Shown: piece after piece, positions 15,522 through 56,566 of the stretch
Numbering within the stretch: the first letter of the stretch is position 1
How the letters are laid out: each line of letters begins with the position of its first letter
Assembly: GCA_027459705.1 (NCBI GenBank)
Contig: DAIDHM010000118.1
Span: 1 to 64,000 of the forward strand
Reading direction: 5' to 3'
Length of the DNA stretch: 64,000 bases
Origin: Ktedonobacteria bacterium
GTDB lineage: Bacteria > Chloroflexota > Ktedonobacteria > Ktedonobacterales > JACDGC01
The notes under the pieces: generated by a model
Seen by the model: only the letters and a program-made list of their open reading frames with translations
Told to the model about the DNA's origin: nothing
Databases searched by the model: none
Position numbers and translations under genes: made by a program

Positions 15522-16838
15522 ATGAAGACTGGTACGCTCTCCCGGCGCCGCGGCTGGTTCACCCAGGCGCCGCCCAACGCCCGTTGGAACTTCTTCACCA
15601 TGGGCATCGATATGGTCTGGTATAGCCTGGGGATGGGAATTTCCTCAATCTACGCTATCTTGCCGCTCTTCGTCCATCGCCTGACACCGGCCAATTGGGT
15701 AGTGGCATTGATCCCGGCAATCCGCACTGCCGCGCAACTCATTCCGCCGATCTTTATCGCCAGCACCGCCGAACGGCTCGATCGCACCAAGCCCATCTTG
15801 CTGCGGCTGACGGTTCTGGAGCGCATCCCTTTCTTTTTTCTGGCGCTGGCAGTGGTGCCATTGGCGTTCGGACATGATCTGATCCTGCTCTGGATCTTTT
15901 TCACGATGCTGGCGATGCAAGGGATGGGGTCGGGGTTGTCTTTCCCGCCCTGGTTGGACCTCGTCGCGCGCGCGATACCAGATCGGTTGCGAGGCCGCTT
16001 CCTCGGTGGCTGGACTGGCCTGGGCAATGCCACAGGCATCGCGGGCACAGCGCTGGCGGTGGTGATTCTGGCGCGTTTTGCGTGGCCATGGAATTTCGCG
16101 CTGACCTTCGGGCTGACGTTTCTCGCGATGATCATCTCCTTCATCCTGCTGGCACTGGCGCGTGAGCCACTCCGACCGACGCACCAGGCGCCACGCCTCT
16201 CCGCGTCCGCCGCGCGGCGTTTGCGCGCCTGGGTTGGCGATCTCTGGAGCATCGTGCGCGGTGATCCCGCCTTCCGCGGCTACCTGCTCGCCAACGCGCT
16301 GAGCGGATTGGCGGCGCTGGGGAGCGGCCTGCTGGCGGTGGCAGCGCTCAACCAGGCACACTTAAGCGAGACGGAGGTCGGCATCGAAGGGACGATCTTA
16401 CAGGTCGTGTTGATGATCGGCTTCCTTGGCTGGGGCTGGATTGCCGATCGCGTCGGGCATAAGCTCATCCTCATCTGTGGTTCTTTCCTGGGCATGGTGG
16501 CGATGGGCGCGGCGGCAGAGGCGCACGGCTGGCTGGCGATGACGCTGGCCTTCGCCGCCTTTGGCCTGGGAACGGCGGCAATGCAATTGGCGCAGATGAG
16601 CTACGTCGTGGAGTTTGGCCCCGCCGCGCGTCGTCCAATCTACATTGGTCTGGCTTACATCGGTCTCGCACCCTTCGCTGCCGGCGCGCCGCTCCTCGGC
16701 GGCATCCTGGCGGACCGCGTCGGCTATGCCCCCGTCTTCGCGCTTGGCGCGGCATTCAGTTTTGTCGCCGCACTGGCTTTCTGGTGGTTGATTCGCCCAC
16801 CAGCGGCAACGGACGAGCCTGCGGGCACGGCGGCGTGA
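15522..16838 (+). CDS. MFS transporter
   Basis: A 438-residue, roughly 12-helix protein. The ATG at 15522 (MKTGTLSRRRGWFTQAPPNA) lies 56 bases after the methyltransferase stop. A longer in-frame reading from 15366 overlaps that gene and has no family character. The loop GWGWIADRVGHKLILICG and the paired six-helix halves are MFS-like. It has no obvious substrate signature. The same strand and short spacing suggest co-transcription with the methyltransferase. Confidence 0.78.
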   Translation: MKTGTLSRRRGWFTQAPPNARWNFFTMGIDMVWYSLGMGISSIYAILPLFVHRLTPANWVVALIPAIRTAAQLIPPIFIASTAERLDRTKPILLRLTVLERIPFFFLALAVVPLAFGHDLILLWIFFTMLAMQGMGSGLSFPPWLDLVARAIPDRLRGRFLGGWTGLGNATGIAGTALAVVILARFAWPWNFALTFGLTFLAMIISFILLALAREPLRPTHQAPRLSASAARRLRAWVGDLWSIVRGDPAFRGYLLANALSGLAALGSGLLAVAALNQAHLSETEVGIEGTILQVVLMIGFLGWGWIADRVGHKLILICGSFLGMVAMGAAAEAHGWLAMTLAFAAFGLGTAAMQLAQMSYVVEFGPAARRPIYIGLAYIGLAPFAAGAPLLGGILADRVGYAPVFALGAAFSFVAALAFWWLIRPPAATDEPAGTAA

Positions 16839-16942
16839 CGCTGGCGTTCCATCTACGAAACGTACGACACAAGGGAGGACGCGGCGACCCAGAAGGAGAG
16901 GGGCGCGTATCTCACTGTGATGAGTCTGTGAGCAGGGCATGC

Positions 16943-17056
16943 TATCTTGCCAACATTGGTTGCTGATCCGGCGCAACCAATCGCACCGGATCAGTTGACA
17001 AGGCGATGATCGCGCGTGGCGCGGCAATGATCGATGATGCGCAGGCATCATCGATC
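16943..17056 (+). promoter_or_regulatory. pckG control region: extended -10 and three perfect inverted repeats
   Basis: TGC-TATCTT (-10 at 16943-16948, extended) predicts a start near 16955. From there: repeat A, ATTGGTTGC (16955-16963) with GCAACCAAT (16973-16981); repeat B, CTGATCCGG (16963-16971) with CCGGATCAG (16986-16994); repeat C, GATCGATGATGC (17029-17040) with GCATCATCGATC (17045-17056). A and B interlock, so the two RNA hairpins exclude each other. A TTGACA at 16995 has no partner -10. The region could be a switching leader or overlapping operators. Confidence 0.55.
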
Positions 17057-17130
17057 GTATCGTACAGAGGTGAGACCCGCGACCACGCGAAGGGGCGTGG
17101 TGCCGTCCCGCCCAGACCGAGAGGAATACG

Positions 17131-18963
17131 ATGCAGATACCCGACTATGTCCACCATACCCGGCTTCGGCAATGGGTCGAAGAGATGGTGGCCCTGTGCA
17201 AACCAGATCAGGTCCATTGGTGCGATGGTTCGCAGAGCGAATACGACGCGCTCTGCCAGTTGCTCGTCGAGAATGGCACATTTACCAGGCTCAATCCAGA
17301 GTTGCGCCCCAATAGCTACCTCGCGCGATCCGATCCCGACGATGTCGCGCGCACCGAAGATCGCACGTTCATCTGCAGTCTCAGCAAGCAGGATGCTGGA
17401 CCGACGAACAATTGGGTCGATCCGCGCAAAATGCACAAGATTCTCAATGGTCTTTTTGACGGATGTATGCGCGGCCGTACGATGTACGTCATGCCATTCA
17501 GCATGGGACCGGTTGGTTCACCCCTCTCATACCTGGGCGTCGAGCTCTCTGACTCTGCGTATGTCGCAGTCCATATGCGTATCATGACGCGTATGGGACG
17601 CGCGGTCTGCGACGTGTTGGGCGCGGATGCACCCTTTGTTCCGGCGGTGCATTCGGTCGGGCAGCCCCTGGAGCCAGGCCAGGCTGATGTGCCCTGGCCC
17701 TGCAACAACGCGAATAAATATATTGTGCATTTTCCCGAAGAACGCGCTATCTGGTCCTTTGGCAGTGGCTATGGCGGCAACGCCCTGCTGGGCAAGAAAT
17801 GTTTTGCCTTACGCATCGCGTCAAATATCGCGCGCGATGAGGGCTGGCTGGCCGAACATATGGCTATTATTGGCGTCCAGGCGCCTGACGGCGAGAAGAC
17901 CTATGTCACCGCCGCGTTTCCCAGTGCCTGCGGCAAAACGAATTTCGCGATGCTCATCCCGCCCCCCGCTCTGGGCGACTGGAAGGTGACAACGGTTGGC
18001 GATGATATCGCCTGGATGAAAGTCGGTGATGACGGCCAGGTGTATGCGATCAACCCCGAGGCCGGGATCTTTGGCGTGGCACCGGGAACCAATGTAGAGT
18101 CAAATCCCAATGCCATGGCAACGATAGCACGGAACGCGCTCTTCACCAATGTCGCGCTGACGCCGGATGGCGATGTCTGGTGGGAAGATATGACGCCCAC
18201 GCCACCACCCGCATTGATCGACTGGCATGGCAATCCGTGGACACCCGCGAGCAAAGAAAAAGCGGCGCACCCCAACGCGCGCTTCACGGCTCCCGCCAGC
18301 CAGTGCCCCTCGATTGATCCTGACTGGGAGAATCCGCGTGGTGTGCCGATACGCGCCTTCATCTTCGGTGGCCGACGCCGCAATGTGATGCCACTGGTGC
18401 TGCATACGTTCAATTGGCCGTATGGCGTCTATTTCGCGGCGACGATGGCCAGCGAGACGACGGCGGCGGCCACCGGCAAGGTTGGCGAAGTACGCCGCGA
18501 TCCGATGGCAATGCTGCCGTTCTGTGGCTATCACATGGCGAGCTACTTCAACCATTGGTTACAATTTGGCCGCGCGCTCTCGAATCCACCCCGCATCTTC
18601 CTTGTCAACTGGTTCCGCAAAGATAAGGATGAGCACTTCCTCTGGAAGGGTTATGGCGAGAACATGCGCATCCTGCAATGGATCGTCGGACGGGCACGGA
18701 CGCGCAGTAGCGGCGTCGAGATGGGGCTGGGTCGCGTGCCGACCTATGCCGATATTGACTGGCGGGGCATGGAAGATTTTACGCCAGAACAATTCGAGCA
18801 GGTGATGTCGATCGACACGGAACTCTGGAAGCAAGAGATTCTGTCGCACGACGAGCTCTTTATGAAGCTGTATGATCGCCTGCCCAAAGAACTGCTCTCC
18901 GTGCGCGATTTGCTGCTCTCCAGCCTCTGGAGCGAACCAGAGTGGAAAGATCGTCAGGAGTGA
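17131..18963 (+). CDS. pckG: Phosphoenolpyruvate carboxykinase (GTP)
   Basis: A 610-residue protein, normal for the GTP-dependent family. The P-loop/kinase-1a motif [12 protein letters not shown] is at about residues 263-274 with the reactive Cys at about 267. [13 protein letters not shown] gives the metal/substrate Asp residues, and [14 protein letters not shown] is the conserved GGRR block. It converts oxaloacetate to PEP with GTP (gluconeogenesis) or runs in reverse for anaplerosis. The start ATG at 17131 has GAGAGGAA 5 bases upstream. It stands alone after a ~290-base leader rich in inverted repeats, suggesting individual control of this carbon-flux step. Confidence 0.96.
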
Positions 18964-21472: not shown

Positions 21473-23200
21473 CTAGGGAGCGTAGACATTCCATTGATTG
21501 TTCTGGTAATGCAACACATATGGAGTGCTGCCCCCGGTTGCCGACGGGGTAGCCGTCGCGACTGGACCACCTATCGGAAGTGTCGTTGTGCTCCCTGGCA
21601 AATCACCCGACCCAACGGCCCAGCCCTCACTCGCCGAAACCATGGCAACGCCAGCGAGCACTGCGGGAAATTGCGTGGCATAGGGACTCCACTGACCATT
21701 AGCATAACCGAGGATGAAACTGTTCGAGATTGCTTGCGATGCGCCGGTTGGTGCGCCTAGCCCGACCGCCCAGCCAGCACTGGATGAGCCGAACGACAGC
21801 CCATAGATCACACCATTGGTCTTCACGGAACTGAGATTCGCGGCGGTCCAGTTTGTCCCGTCATAGTGCATCAACAATGGCCCATTGCCAAATCCGCTGG
21901 CGCGTTTCTGCGCACCATTTGCGAGGCCACCAGCCCAGGCATCAGTCGGCGATAACATCGTCAGGGCCAGGACATTCCCATTGATGTCATTGCGAATCAC
22001 ACTCCACTGGCCGTTCTGGCGTCGCAGCAGTGTGCCATAGCCACCAATCCATACATCGTTGGGGGTGAGCGCGGCGAGGGCGTGCGCGTCGCTGGTAGCG
22101 GTCAGGTTGAGTGTAGACCAGTTGCCATTGAGATAATGGACCACAATCGGCCCATGGGCTTCAGTCTGGCCTAGCATCCACCCTTCATTCGCCGAGATCA
22201 TGCTGATATTTTGCAATGCGGATTGGAATGGCACAACAATCCGCTGCCAGGCTTTGCCATCATAATGCATGACGAGCGCATCTTGCTGCACCGAGCCCAC
22301 CGCCCAGATGTCGTTGGCCGCGACAGCGGCGACACTGCTGAGACTGCCATTCGGTACCCCGATATGCAGCGTCATCCAGCGTGTTCCATCATAATGCGCG
22401 ATGAGCGTCCCCGCCGTATCCGTACCAACTGCGTACCCATCATTCGCCGTTACCATCGCGACTGCGCTCAGTGTTCCTTGCGTGGGGAGGCCCGTCGCGG
22501 GATTGACGGTGACGACCAGCTGTCCGACGGTCTGGACGGTGCCTGGCACATTGTTGATTGCTGGGAGCGTTCCGATTGGGCCAGTTTGTGAAGGGGATGG
22601 AGTTGAGGTCGAAGATATTCCTGGGCCACTGCCAAGGCCAGCAGTAGTGACATGCCAGAGGCCAGTTACCACCAATACACCGATGAGGACGACAAGCAAT
22701 GCCGCCGCTACTGTTGGATAGGTGCGCCGTGCATTGGGGCGCGCAGTTTTTTCCACGGTCGTACTCCTGTTCCGCACATGACCACCTGGGTCAGTTCTCA
22801 CCGGAGACCAGGCGCCAGAGGGACGATCCATGACGTGCCGTCTCTCGCCTGGTATCCATGCTGCAACAGGAACATCTGGCGTGGACAAAAACGGACTGGT
22901 ATCTTCGTCAACAAAGTTGCTTTCGTGCAGCCTTGCCAACACCGCATCCGCTAGCGAAGGCGTTGGCTCATCAGCGGCCCCGGGTGACTCAGCCAACGAC
23001 CGCATCAGCGCGCGGATGCGCAAGATCGTCGCGTACTCCCGCTGGCAAGCTGCACAGGATGCCAGATGGCTCTCCACGGCAACACGCGCCGCCGCCTCCA
23101 TAGGTGCACGCGCATCGCCATACGTATAGTCGGTGAGCAGATCGCGCACCTGTTGGTGATCCAACTCGCTCATATGGTGGGTTTCATCGCGATCACTCAT
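21473..23200 (-). CDS. Anti-sigma factor: zinc finger, one TM helix, seven-repeat outer domain
   Basis: A 575-residue protein. The N-terminal zf-HC2 anti-sigma zinc finger has His45, Cys49 and Cys52 (VESHLASCAACQ). One membrane helix is at about 163-183. A Pro/Ser/Thr linker leads to about 360 residues containing seven units of the type xAND/EGWAVG ... LxHYDGxxW (for example TANDGYAVGTD with AHYDGTRWMTL, and SASEGWAVGSGD with LHYQNNQWNVY). Seven such units fit a seven-bladed propeller outside the cell. Its first codon overlaps the sigma factor gene by 4 bases. Predicted role: hold the ECF sigma factor at the membrane and release it on an external signal. Confidence 0.82.
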   Translation of the reverse strand: MSDRDETHHMSELDHQQVRDLLTDYTYGDARAPMEAAARVAVESHLASCAACQREYATILRIRALMRSLAESPGAADEPTPSLADAVLARLHESNFVDEDTSPFLSTPDVPVAAWIPGERRHVMDRPSGAWSPVRTDPGGHVRNRSTTVEKTARPNARRTYPTVAAALLVVLIGVLVVTGLWHVTTAGLGSGPGISSTSTPSPSQTGPIGTLPAINNVPGTVQTVGQLVVTVNPATGLPTQGTLSAVAMVTANDGYAVGTDTAGTLIAHYDGTRWMTLHIGVPNGSLSSVAAVAANDIWAVGSVQQDALVMHYDGKAWQRIVVPFQSALQNISMISANEGWMLGQTEAHGPIVVHYLNGNWSTLNLTATSDAHALAALTPNDVWIGGYGTLLRRQNGQWSVIRNDINGNVLALTMLSPTDAWAGGLANGAQKRASGFGNGPLLMHYDGTNWTAANLSSVKTNGVIYGLSFGSSSAGWAVGLGAPTGASQAISNSFILGYANGQWSPYATQFPAVLAGVAMVSASEGWAVGSGDLPGSTTTLPIGGPVATATPSATGGSTPYVLHYQNNQWNVYAP

Positions 23201-23790
23201 GACCGCACCTCCGTATCCAGCGCCAGATAGGCAGCACGCAACGCGACAAGTCCACGCGCCACGCGTTTGCGCACCGCCTCGCCCGTCAATCCTAAGCGAG
23301 TGGCTATCTCACCATAGCGTTCGCCCGCCACGAAATGGAGGACGAGGCAAGCCGCGTCGTCATCACTGAGACTCTCCAACGCCTGGCGTAACAAGATGCG
23401 TGCGACTACCTGATCCTCCAGGCCAATGCCGGGGGTGGGGAATGGCACCCTCACCGCGTCCCATGACATTGCCTCGGTATGATGCTGACGGATCAGCGAT
23501 AGGGCGCGATTGGTGGCGATGCGGTACAGCCAGGGGGCCAGCGGTGATGCTGTCGGCGTTTCGGGAGGCTGCCAGCGCGGTAGGGCGCGATAGGCCGCGA
23601 CGAATGTCTCCTGTGTCAGGTCCCGTGCCAACTCATGATCGCCCAGCATCTGGGTCAGATAGGCGATCAATCGCTGCTCATAGAGTTGCACCAACATCCT
23701 GAACGCTGCTTGATCCCCATGGATGGCATGGTGAATAGCGTCCATCTCGCGGCTATACTCATCTTCTTCAGGCGGCCTCTTCCAGGGCAT
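23197..23790 (-). CDS. ECF-type RNA polymerase sigma factor
   Basis: A 197-residue sigma-70-family protein with region 2 (HELARDLTQETFVAAYRALPRW, then LYRIATNRALSLIR) and region 4 (YGEIATRLGLTGEAVRKRVA). No region 1 or 3, so ECF type. It overlaps the downstream anti-sigma gene by 4 bases, the typical ECF/anti-sigma arrangement. The target promoter may include its own upstream region (23791-24000); no motif shared with the second module was identified. Confidence 0.92.
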   Translation of the reverse strand: MPWKRPPEEDEYSREMDAIHHAIHGDQAAFRMLVQLYEQRLIAYLTQMLGDHELARDLTQETFVAAYRALPRWQPPETPTASPLAPWLYRIATNRALSLIRQHHTEAMSWDAVRVPFPTPGIGLEDQVVARILLRQALESLSDDDAACLVLHFVAGERYGEIATRLGLTGEAVRKRVARGLVALRAAYLALDTEVRS

Positions 23791-28343: not shown

Positions 28344-28577
28344 TTATTCTGCCACAAGGTCAGCACGGATGCGCTGCACACCCTGACCAATATTCTCGGC
28401 CTTGAGGATGCGGAAAGTTCCCATGCCGCGCGTATGGCTCACATGCGGGCCGCCGCAGACCTCGCGCGAGTAATCGCCAATTCGGTACACTTTGACGGTT
28501 TCGGGATAGCGTTCGCCGAAGAAGGCCAGCGCGCCACCTGCCAGGGCTTCTTGCAATGGCATCATCGCCATATCCAC
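28344..28577 (-). CDS. alaS: alaS 3' segment downstream of an in-frame TAG
   Basis: Seventy-seven codons in exactly the same frame as the upstream alaS reading frame, separated from it only by TAG (28598-28596) and six sense codons. They encode the end of the AlaRS editing domain: MPLQEALAGGALAFFGERYP, VYRIGDYSREVCGGPHV with the Cys and His zinc ligands, and GTFRILKAENIGQGVQRIRA. A GTG (28577) or ATG (28571) could start it, and GGAGGTG lies directly before the ATG, so re-initiation is conceivable. Otherwise it is the tail of a nonsense-interrupted or recoded alaS. It ends RIRADLVAE without the C-Ala domain. Confidence 0.7.
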   Translation of the reverse strand: MDMAMMPLQEALAGGALAFFGERYPETVKVYRIGDYSREVCGGPHVSHTRGMGTFRILKAENIGQGVQRIRADLVAE

Positions 28578-28595: not shown

Positions 28596-30128
28596 CTACG
28601 CATTGATGCGATCCTCCACCGCGCGGATCTCCGTGGGCGTCAGCTTCTTTGGATGCGAGAAATCGAAGCGCAAGCGTTCTGGCGTGATGTTGCTGCCCAT
28701 CTGGTGGACATGGTCACCCAACACATCACGTAATGCCTGCTGCAACAGGTGGGTCGCCGTATGGAGTTGGGTTGTCCGCTCGCTATGGTCCGCCAGACCA
28801 CCTTTGAATTTCTCCTGATTGGCAGCGCGCGAGAGTTCGCGGTGGTGACGGAAATGCTCTTCATAGCCCGCCATATCCGCTACCAGGCCACGTTCGCGCG
28901 CCAGTTCCGCCGTAAGAGTCGAGGGAAATCCATAGGTATCGAAGAGGCGGAAGACTATCTCGCCAGACAAGGTCCCGCCGGAGGTCAACACCGGATCACT
29001 CGTGATCCTGTCGAATTCACGGAGTCCACGCGTCAATGTCTGGCCGAAGCGCTCCTCTTCGCGGCCGATCTCCGTGAGGATCATCTCGACCTGGTCGGCG
29101 ATCTCCCGATAAGCCTGGTGGTAGCGCTCGATGATAGTCTGGGCTATCTGGGCGGTGAAAGGAGAGGGCATCCCGAGTTCATGCCCCGCCAGGATCGCGC
29201 GTCGGATAAGGCGACGACAGATATAACCTCGCTCGACATTGCTGGGGATGACCCGATCAGCGATCATAAAGACCGCCGCGCGCAGATGGTCGGCGATGAT
29301 GCGCTCGCGTCGCATGACGCGATCCGGGGCGAGGTCGGCGCGCTGACCGGCGCTGAGTTCACGGATCGCCGCCATCGTCCGATGATAGAGGTCCGTCGCA
29401 TAGACATCGGTGCCCCCCAGCATTGCCAGGATGCGCTCTAAGCCCAGGCCCACATCGATGTTGCGCTGGCGCAAGGGTTCGAATGTGCCCTCGGCGGTCT
29501 TGTTATATGTCATAAAGACGTTATTGCCGATCTCGACAAATGCACCGCAGTCGCACCCAGGGCCACAATCTGGACCACACATCGGTTTGCCAGTCGCGTA
29601 GAACAGCTCAGAGTCAGGACCGCACGGGCCAGTCTGGCCCGCCGGTCCCCACCAGTTGTCATGTTTGGGGAGCGGACGGATGCGTTCAGCGGGAATGCCG
29701 AGAGCGCGCCAGACAGCGATGGCTTCCTCATCGCGCGGTGCATCAGCATCGCCCGCGAAGACGCTCACCCAGATGCGATCGCGCGCCAACCCAAGCACAT
29801 CGGTGAACCATTCGAGCGTCCAGCGCAGTGAATCCTGTTTCCAGTAATCACCCAGCGACCAGAAGCCGAGCATTTCAAAGAATGTTCCGTGCGAGGCGTC
29901 ACCGACCTCCTCGATGTCATCGGTGCGCAGGCACTTCTGTGCGTTCGTCAAACGTTTGCCGAGCGGATGAGGTTCACCCAGCAGGTAGGGGACGAGTGGG
30001 TGCATCCCCGCGGTAGTGAAGAGCACGGTCGGGTCATTCTCTGGCACGAGAGGTGCCGAGGGAATTATGGCGTGGCCGCGTTCTGCAAAAAATGATAAGA
30101 ATGACTGGCGGAGTTGATCACCATTCAT
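28596..30128 (-). CDS. alaS: Alanyl-tRNA synthetase, ending at an in-frame TAG
   Basis: 510 codons from the ATG at 30128 (MNGDQLRQSFLSFFAERGHA), with AAGGAG 8 bases upstream. The class II aminoacylation core is complete (FTTAGMHPLVPYLLGEPHP, KCLRTDDIEEVGD, GLGLERIL). The cysteine cluster CGPDCGPGCDCGAF, the tRNA-recognition helices and the start of the editing domain with LHTATHLLQQAL (two His ligands) follow. The frame stops at TAG (28598-28596) after VEDRINA, then continues without shift into the rest of the editing domain (28577-28344). Including that tail the product would be 594 residues, far below the ~870 of most bacterial AlaRS, because C-Ala is absent. A T-box leader lies upstream. 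Confidence 0.88.
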   Translation of the reverse strand: MNGDQLRQSFLSFFAERGHAIIPSAPLVPENDPTVLFTTAGMHPLVPYLLGEPHPLGKRLTNAQKCLRTDDIEEVGDASHGTFFEMLGFWSLGDYWKQDSLRWTLEWFTDVLGLARDRIWVSVFAGDADAPRDEEAIAVWRALGIPAERIRPLPKHDNWWGPAGQTGPCGPDSELFYATGKPMCGPDCGPGCDCGAFVEIGNNVFMTYNKTAEGTFEPLRQRNIDVGLGLERILAMLGGTDVYATDLYHRTMAAIRELSAGQRADLAPDRVMRRERIIADHLRAAVFMIADRVIPSNVERGYICRRLIRRAILAGHELGMPSPFTAQIAQTIIERYHQAYREIADQVEMILTEIGREEERFGQTLTRGLREFDRITSDPVLTSGGTLSGEIVFRLFDTYGFPSTLTAELARERGLVADMAGYEEHFRHHRELSRAANQEKFKGGLADHSERTTQLHTATHLLQQALRDVLGDHVHQMGSNITPERLRFDFSHPKKLTPTEIRAVEDRINA

Positions 30129-30146
30129 CAACAAAACTCCTTCTCC

Positions 30147-30183
30147 GACCGGAAAGCCCAGTTCCGCCGGAGGGTCCGGTTCC
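30147..30183 (-). repeat. Dispersed element between T-box terminator and alaS start
   Basis: GCCGGAGGGTCCGGTTCC at 30166-30183 is a variant of the dispersed 18-mer in reverse orientation, preceded by a more degenerate copy at 30147-30165. The pair lies inside the alaS transcript, between the T-box terminator and the alaS ribosome-binding site. Confidence 0.7.
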
Positions 30184-30231
30184 GGTCGCAAGTAACCGTG
30201 TCGCTCCACGTCCACTGAAAACGTGAAGCAT

Positions 30232-50973: not shown

Positions 50974-50978
50974 ACCAG

Positions 50979-51020
50979 CCAAAGAGGCGGAAGTTTCGGG
51001 GGAAACTTCCGCCTCTTTGG
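50979..51020 (+). terminator. Very stable terminator-like hairpin after the cupredoxin genes
   Basis: A perfect 19-bp stem (CCAAAGAGGCGGAAGTTTC with its complement, loop GGGG) begins 6 bases after the stop. No U-tract follows, but the stem is the longest perfect one in the window. Confidence 0.7.
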
Positions 51021-51088
51021 CGAACTATGCTGAGATATCTCAGAGAGTACAGGTTGATTCACCGCTCCTGCTAGGAGGAAATTCGAGC

Positions 51089-56317: not shown

Positions 56318-56503
56318 TGTCTTGGCCTCCTCTGCCTGTGTAGCGCTTCCCACTCATCTTCCAGCGTACCCTACCCAACCAAATCGTATGGCGGGTGCTC
56401 GGTTTGGTCTGCGTGCGGAGTATTCGCGGAAGGGCGGCTCAAACCTGTGCCCAACAGGGTATCGCAAAACCTCGGCCATGTCGGATTATCGCCGCTACGC
56501 AAA

Positions 56504-56543
56504 AACCAGCGCGCGGACAAGATTTCCTGTCCGCGCGCTGGTT
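56504..56543 (-). terminator. Terminator of ECF/anti-sigma operon 2
   Basis: A perfect 16-bp stem (AACCAGCGCGCGGACA and its complement, 8-base loop) runs into five T on the minus strand, 23 bases after the anti-sigma stop at 56567. Confidence 0.85.
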
Positions 56544-56566
56544 TGTTGTGTGCAGTCTCTGCTCGA

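Follow-up and report, generated by a model that had tools for sequence, protein, structure and literature searches.

The window, a stretch of 64,000 nucleotides from contig DAIDHM010000118.1 of a Ktedonobacteria bacterium (assembly GCA_027459705.1), carries pckG, the second PEP carboxykinase (PEPCK) gene of its genome. Between pckG and the MFS transporter gene upstream of it lies a gap of 292 bp that contains three perfect inverted repeats, designated A, B and C. The features of the locus, in window coordinates, are as follows.

15522-16838, + strand: MFS transporter gene, in the same orientation as pckG and ending 292 bp before it
16912-16932, no strand: short dyad CTCAC-N11-GTGAG, plus TGTGA twice 11 bp apart, upstream of the -10 element, as read from the sequence
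16940-16948, + strand: predicted extended -10 element TGCTATCTT, which fits the motif TGCTANNNT; no recognisable -35
16955-16981, no strand: inverted repeat A, 9-N9-9, centred at about +14 if +1 is 16955; single copy in the genome
16963-16994, no strand: inverted repeat B, 9-N14-9, interleaved with A and centred 10.5 bp downstream of it; the dominant RNA stem
17013-17101, + strand: second mutually exclusive set of pairings, 17083-17089 (CCACGCG) with 17013-17019, or 17082-17088 with 17095-17101
17029-17056, + strand: hairpin C, 12 perfect bp with a GCAG loop, to which the sense strand adds a G-U and an A-U pair
17120-17128, + strand: Shine-Dalgarno region GAGAGGAAT of pckG, likewise a reading of the sequence
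17131-18963, + strand: pckG, GTP-type PEP carboxykinase, assigned by Pfam (PEPCK_GTP, PEPCK_N) and by phylogenetic tree

Geometry of the repeats and the predicted transcription start

Repeat A consists of ATTGGTTGC (16955-16963) and GCAACCAAT (16973-16981), paired at 9/9 positions across a loop of 9; repeat B of CTGATCCGG (16963-16971) and CCGGATCAG (16986-16994), paired at 9/9 positions across a loop of 14; and repeat C of GATCGATGATGC (17029-17040) and GCATCATCGATC (17045-17056), paired at 12/12 positions across a loop of 4. All three were found exactly where the original prediction had placed them, and their arm sequences are mutually unrelated. A and B are interleaved, with centres at 16968 and 16978.5, and base C16963 is common to both, so that the two 9-bp stems can never be complete at once, not even in a pseudoknot. 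The mutual exclusion that had been proposed is thereby upheld. Its three connectors, given as 0, 1 and 4 nt, need one correction: the 1-nt (C16972) and 4-nt (CGCA) connectors are right, and the supposed connector of 0 nt is in fact the one-base overlap.

A transcription start at about 16955 is plausible. The predicted +1 is the first base of A and lies 7 nt after TATCTT (16943-16948). In a sample of the same genome, TGCTANNNT occurs in the sense orientation in 30 of 263 leaders; its reverse complement occurs in 13, and shuffling gives 8.0 +/- 2.5. Because TGCTATCTT matches this genome-enriched motif, a start near 16955 is supported, without being proven, and the earlier placement of the promoter at A stands. 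A consensus scan of the pckG upstream region detected neither a -35 box nor a classical two-box promoter. The dyad at 16912-16932 is a possible activator site.

Two further observations concern the leaders of this genome. The motif TTGAC-N17-19-TANNNT is likewise enriched in the sense orientation among the 263 leaders. The pckG leader also has five GATC sites within 89 bp, spaced 19-24 bp apart, in a genome sample where GATC reaches 8.8 per kb, about twice the random-tetranucleotide expectation. This cluster was rejected as a special feature, with 51 such places in the genome sample, mostly coding.

Origin of pckG and searches for related leaders

The other GTP-type PEP carboxykinase of the genome (G000:C139:12554-14266) is 55% identical to the pckG product of the window. 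In the tree, it groups with the genome's own family, and the window pckG groups with Aggregatilineales/Anaerolineae (support 100/99). In G004, a member of the same family, the methyltransferase-MFS block is followed not by pckG but by a different gene, read as a hypoxanthine phosphoribosyltransferase gene. Misbinning of the contig was considered and set aside, as the closest match to the contig's purH comes from the family of this genome (70%); the contig therefore fits and is not obviously misbinned. The position of pckG outside its own family's PEPCK clade, the different gene in G004 and the fit of the contig together suggest that pckG was probably acquired and that its leader is probably young. 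A scan of ten genes in the interval 11.4-26.9 kb found no transcription-factor gene other than an ECF sigma factor (23197-23790). Elsewhere in the window, adjacent frames on the - strand (28344-28577 and 28596-30215) resemble pieces of alanyl-tRNA synthetase, going by their translations only, as if that gene were split or frameshifted.

No other copies of A or B were present in the same genome at up to 2 mismatches. With 3 mismatches allowed, the look-alikes of the dyads fell mostly within genes; A had eight, six of them inside predicted genes and only one close upstream of a predicted gene; enrichment counts from this 3-mismatch search are biased, some background contigs having been picked for holding such matches. 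A search of 400 genomes of the phylum for A at up to 1 mismatch returned five others, including three near-identical ones within one family, a trio that looks like a coding motif. DNA similarity to 17000-17024 in four genomes was dismissed, since it falls in unrelated genes, three of which share a common coding word. The nearest pckG genes (67-76% identity) have leaders that lack A, B and C and are unrelated in sequence, and no homologous pckG leader was found in the related genomes compared. The 11 nearest pckG leaders show no strong structure (folding z-scores of -1.7 to +1.3). Nothing relevant was found in the literature on PEPCK leaders and riboswitches.

Repeat density and folding of the leader

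The genome sample that contains the 263 leaders, 708 kb in all, was searched for perfect repeats with arms of 9 bp or more and loops of 3-20. There are 214 of them, versus 54-77 in Markov simulations, with densities of 0.82 per kb in intergenic DNA and 0.19 per kb in genes. A/B is the sole interleaved perfect pair of at least 9 bp in the 708 kb, and none occurred in five Markov simulations. When the observed repeats were placed at random, 0.2 interleaved pairs fell in the 708-kb sample, or ~1.3 per genome, and the interleaving of A and B by itself is thus only mildly surprising. The 176-nt pckG leader is the only one of the 263 with three such repeats. In folding z-score (-5.4 to -6.2) it takes second place among them; the first-ranked leader belongs to a gene downstream of a 23-bp hairpin located 30 bp past the preceding stop codon. 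Repeats that are striking in the raw sequence can evidently weaken when they are set against the repeat density of the genome and against both strands.

Folding strongly favors B over A. In the 40-nt core, the B and A states have energies of -19.1 and -10.6 kcal/mol, respectively (B ahead by 8.5); in the 176-nt leader, -87.9 and -77.0 kcal/mol (10.9); and in the leader with 60 nt of coding sequence, -105.2 and -97.2 kcal/mol (8.0). The ensemble pair probability is 0.00 for A and ~1 for B and C. During cotranscriptional minimum-energy folding, A is best only at ~24-34 nt of transcript and B is best afterwards. When A was forced, the three bases of the start codon were unpaired with probabilities of 0.52/0.09/0.23 vs 0.13/0.12/0.12 with 30 nt of coding sequence included, and 0.34/0.31/0.34 vs 0.18/0.16/0.17 with 90 nt. 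The Shine-Dalgarno core GAGAGGA is equally exposed in both states. The second exclusive set further downstream gave pair probabilities of 0.15-0.22 vs 0.78-0.85 for its two alternatives when coding sequence was included. A terminator scan of the pckG leader found no terminator and no T-run, and Rfam returned no family match, only a sub-threshold chance match on the opposite strand (21 bits vs a cut-off of 40).

Given the lead of B, the zero probability of A and the lack of a terminator or an Rfam match, a classical two-state leader is not supported by the modelling. The RNA switch put forward in the original prediction thus lacks support at equilibrium, where the effect on the start codon is also modest. 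Folding did reveal strong structure, with B but not A populated at equilibrium, and the Rfam result agrees with the earlier view that the leader belongs to no known class.

The folding signal was also compared between strands. The A/B segment has a z-score of -4.5 on the sense strand and -5.6 on the antisense strand, C has -6.8 and -5.5, respectively, and the leader without A/B and C is unremarkable (-1.3). For A/B, the antisense strand equals or exceeds the sense strand, as symmetric DNA would and an RNA selected on one strand would not. C looks to lean slightly towards RNA and A/B towards symmetric DNA, by a discriminator that is weak because a perfect repeat necessarily scores on either strand.

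Interpretation of the interleaved repeats

We tentatively prefer, at somewhat less than an even chance, to read A and B as overlapping DNA operators accompanied by a structured 5' UTR, the whole being an ordinary lineage-specific control site. A and B would be two overlapping protein-binding dyads. In the pckG transcription unit they would span approximately +1 to +40, and their centres, near +14 and +24.5, lie 10.5 bp, or one helical turn, from each other. Since the arms are unrelated, each dyad would be recognised by a dimeric regulator of its own, or both by alternative forms of a single regulator. The two would bind in a mutually exclusive manner, and RNA polymerase would be blocked or released just past the start. 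Hairpin C, together with the neighbouring pairing, would form an additional stem-loop in the 5' UTR, probably constitutive. The analysis establishes the repeats with their geometry and strand symmetry, the -10 motif typical of this genome and the recent context of pckG; protein binding, repression and the identity and signal of any regulator we infer.

Several findings argue for operators. Two perfect 9/9 dyads adjoin a -10 motif that belongs to a class over-represented in the leaders of this genome, and A/B lies 117 bp past the upstream stop codon, when most terminator-like hairpins of the genome lie 2-46 bp past a stop. As A is unpopulated in RNA at equilibrium, RNA pairing does not account for the perfect match of its arms, which we count in favor of operators. 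The strand symmetry and the 10.5-bp offset fit the overlapping operators that had been suggested earlier, whereas the searches described above turned up no regulator, no second genomic site and no conserved counterpart. Against operators stands the ~1.3 interleaved pairs per genome expected by coincidence. The weakest step is that the unrelated arms of A, B and C call for several regulators.

Known operators offer precedents and resemble the arrangement in part. CIRCE, the operator of HrcA, is TTAGCACTC-N9-GAGTGCTAA, a single dyad of the sort that covers a start site or promoter (PMC7464140). Repeat A shares this 9-N9-9 spacing and would likewise overlap a start site, here a predicted one. Its arms (ATTGGTTGC and GCAACCAAT) are unrelated to TTAGCACTC and GAGTGCTAA, pckG is not a chaperone gene and A, unlike CIRCE, overlaps a second dyad. 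A CIRCE-like site with 2 mismatches does occur elsewhere in the genome (G000:C149). Operators of the QacR type (TetR family) also comprise two overlapping inverted repeats with room for two dimers; according to work cited in PMC6449355, these dyads sit over start sites or promoters, and the dimers occupy opposite sides of the helix on related half-sites. In contrast, the centres of A and B are one full turn apart, on the same side, and the arms are unrelated; the ten-gene scan of 11.4-26.9 kb revealed no TetR gene. In Alphaproteobacteria, LacI-family regulators act on central carbon metabolism; one of them is PckR, which has been reported, like its motif, only in Rhizobiales (PMC4052901). If A and B are operators, pckG would resemble the target of PckR in being a PEPCK gene governed by a palindromic site.

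Apart from operators, it is possible, though unlikely, that the leader is a static structured 5' UTR in which B and C, as RNA stem-loops close to the 5' end, would make the mRNA more stable or adjust its translation, and A would be incidental. The extreme z-score of the leader (rank 2/263), the pair probabilities of ~1 for B and C and the G-U pair that makes C more stable on the sense strand would all follow, but nothing remarkable is left of the leader's fold (z of -1.3) once A/B and C are removed, the A/B segment has no sense bias, the 11 nearest pckG leaders are unstructured (-1.7 to +1.3) and A is left unexplained. We regard as distinctly unlikely a neutral origin, in which inverted copies arose by template switching or chance, without function, in young intergenic DNA beside an acquired gene. 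The confinement of the leader to this genome, the placement of pckG outside its own family's PEPCK clade, the different gene after the methyltransferase-MFS block of G004 and the ~1.3 coincidental pairs per genome are consistent with such an origin; three perfect repeats in one leader (1/263), immediately after a -10 motif typical of the genome, are not what it would lead one to expect.

A true RNA switch, in which A forms first at the 5' end and is displaced by B, with a ligand, a protein or the rate of transcription deciding the outcome (kinetically or through a pseudoknot), is improbable. Its mutually exclusive pairings in the leader of a metabolic gene recall riboswitches and attenuators, cotranscriptional folding passes through A (~24-34 nt) before B, the loop of A is filled by the 5' arm of B, start-codon exposure rises somewhat when A is forced and a further exclusive set lies at 17013-17101. 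Unlike in riboswitches and attenuators, however, one state dominates by at least 8 kcal/mol (8.0-10.9 across the folds, with A at 0.00), an expression platform is lacking (no terminator, GAGAGGA equally exposed), the connectors are too short for a full pseudoknot, and the leader has neither an Rfam match nor conservation among the relatives compared. Very improbable, too, is a kinetic variant in which the first 27 nt would fold as A and be displaced by B through A's loop, so that pairing at the extreme 5' end, and along with it mRNA decay or early elongation, would report a metabolite, a protein or transcription speed without a classical terminator or ribosome-site platform. If A/B were an RNA device, it would represent a new leader class. 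We give almost no weight to A, B and C being terminator hairpins of the upstream MFS gene. Many long perfect hairpins do follow genes in this genome, mostly 2-46 bp past the stop, yet B and C lie 117-191 bp past it, B overlaps the predicted pckG start, and the T-run that accompanies the stem of an intrinsic terminator just past a stop is absent.

If A and B are operators as we prefer, they would show how a second and apparently acquired PEPCK gene came under separate control in a bacterial lineage that has received little study. The repeats are a single unconserved example, and their value is that of a defined, easily tested site.

Apart from the pckG leader, perfect hairpins of 12-23 bp with no T-run lie 2-46 bp past stop codons at 50978-51021 and 56503-56544 of the window and at similar places in the genome sample, which suggests that this organism ends transcription at hairpins without a U-tract.
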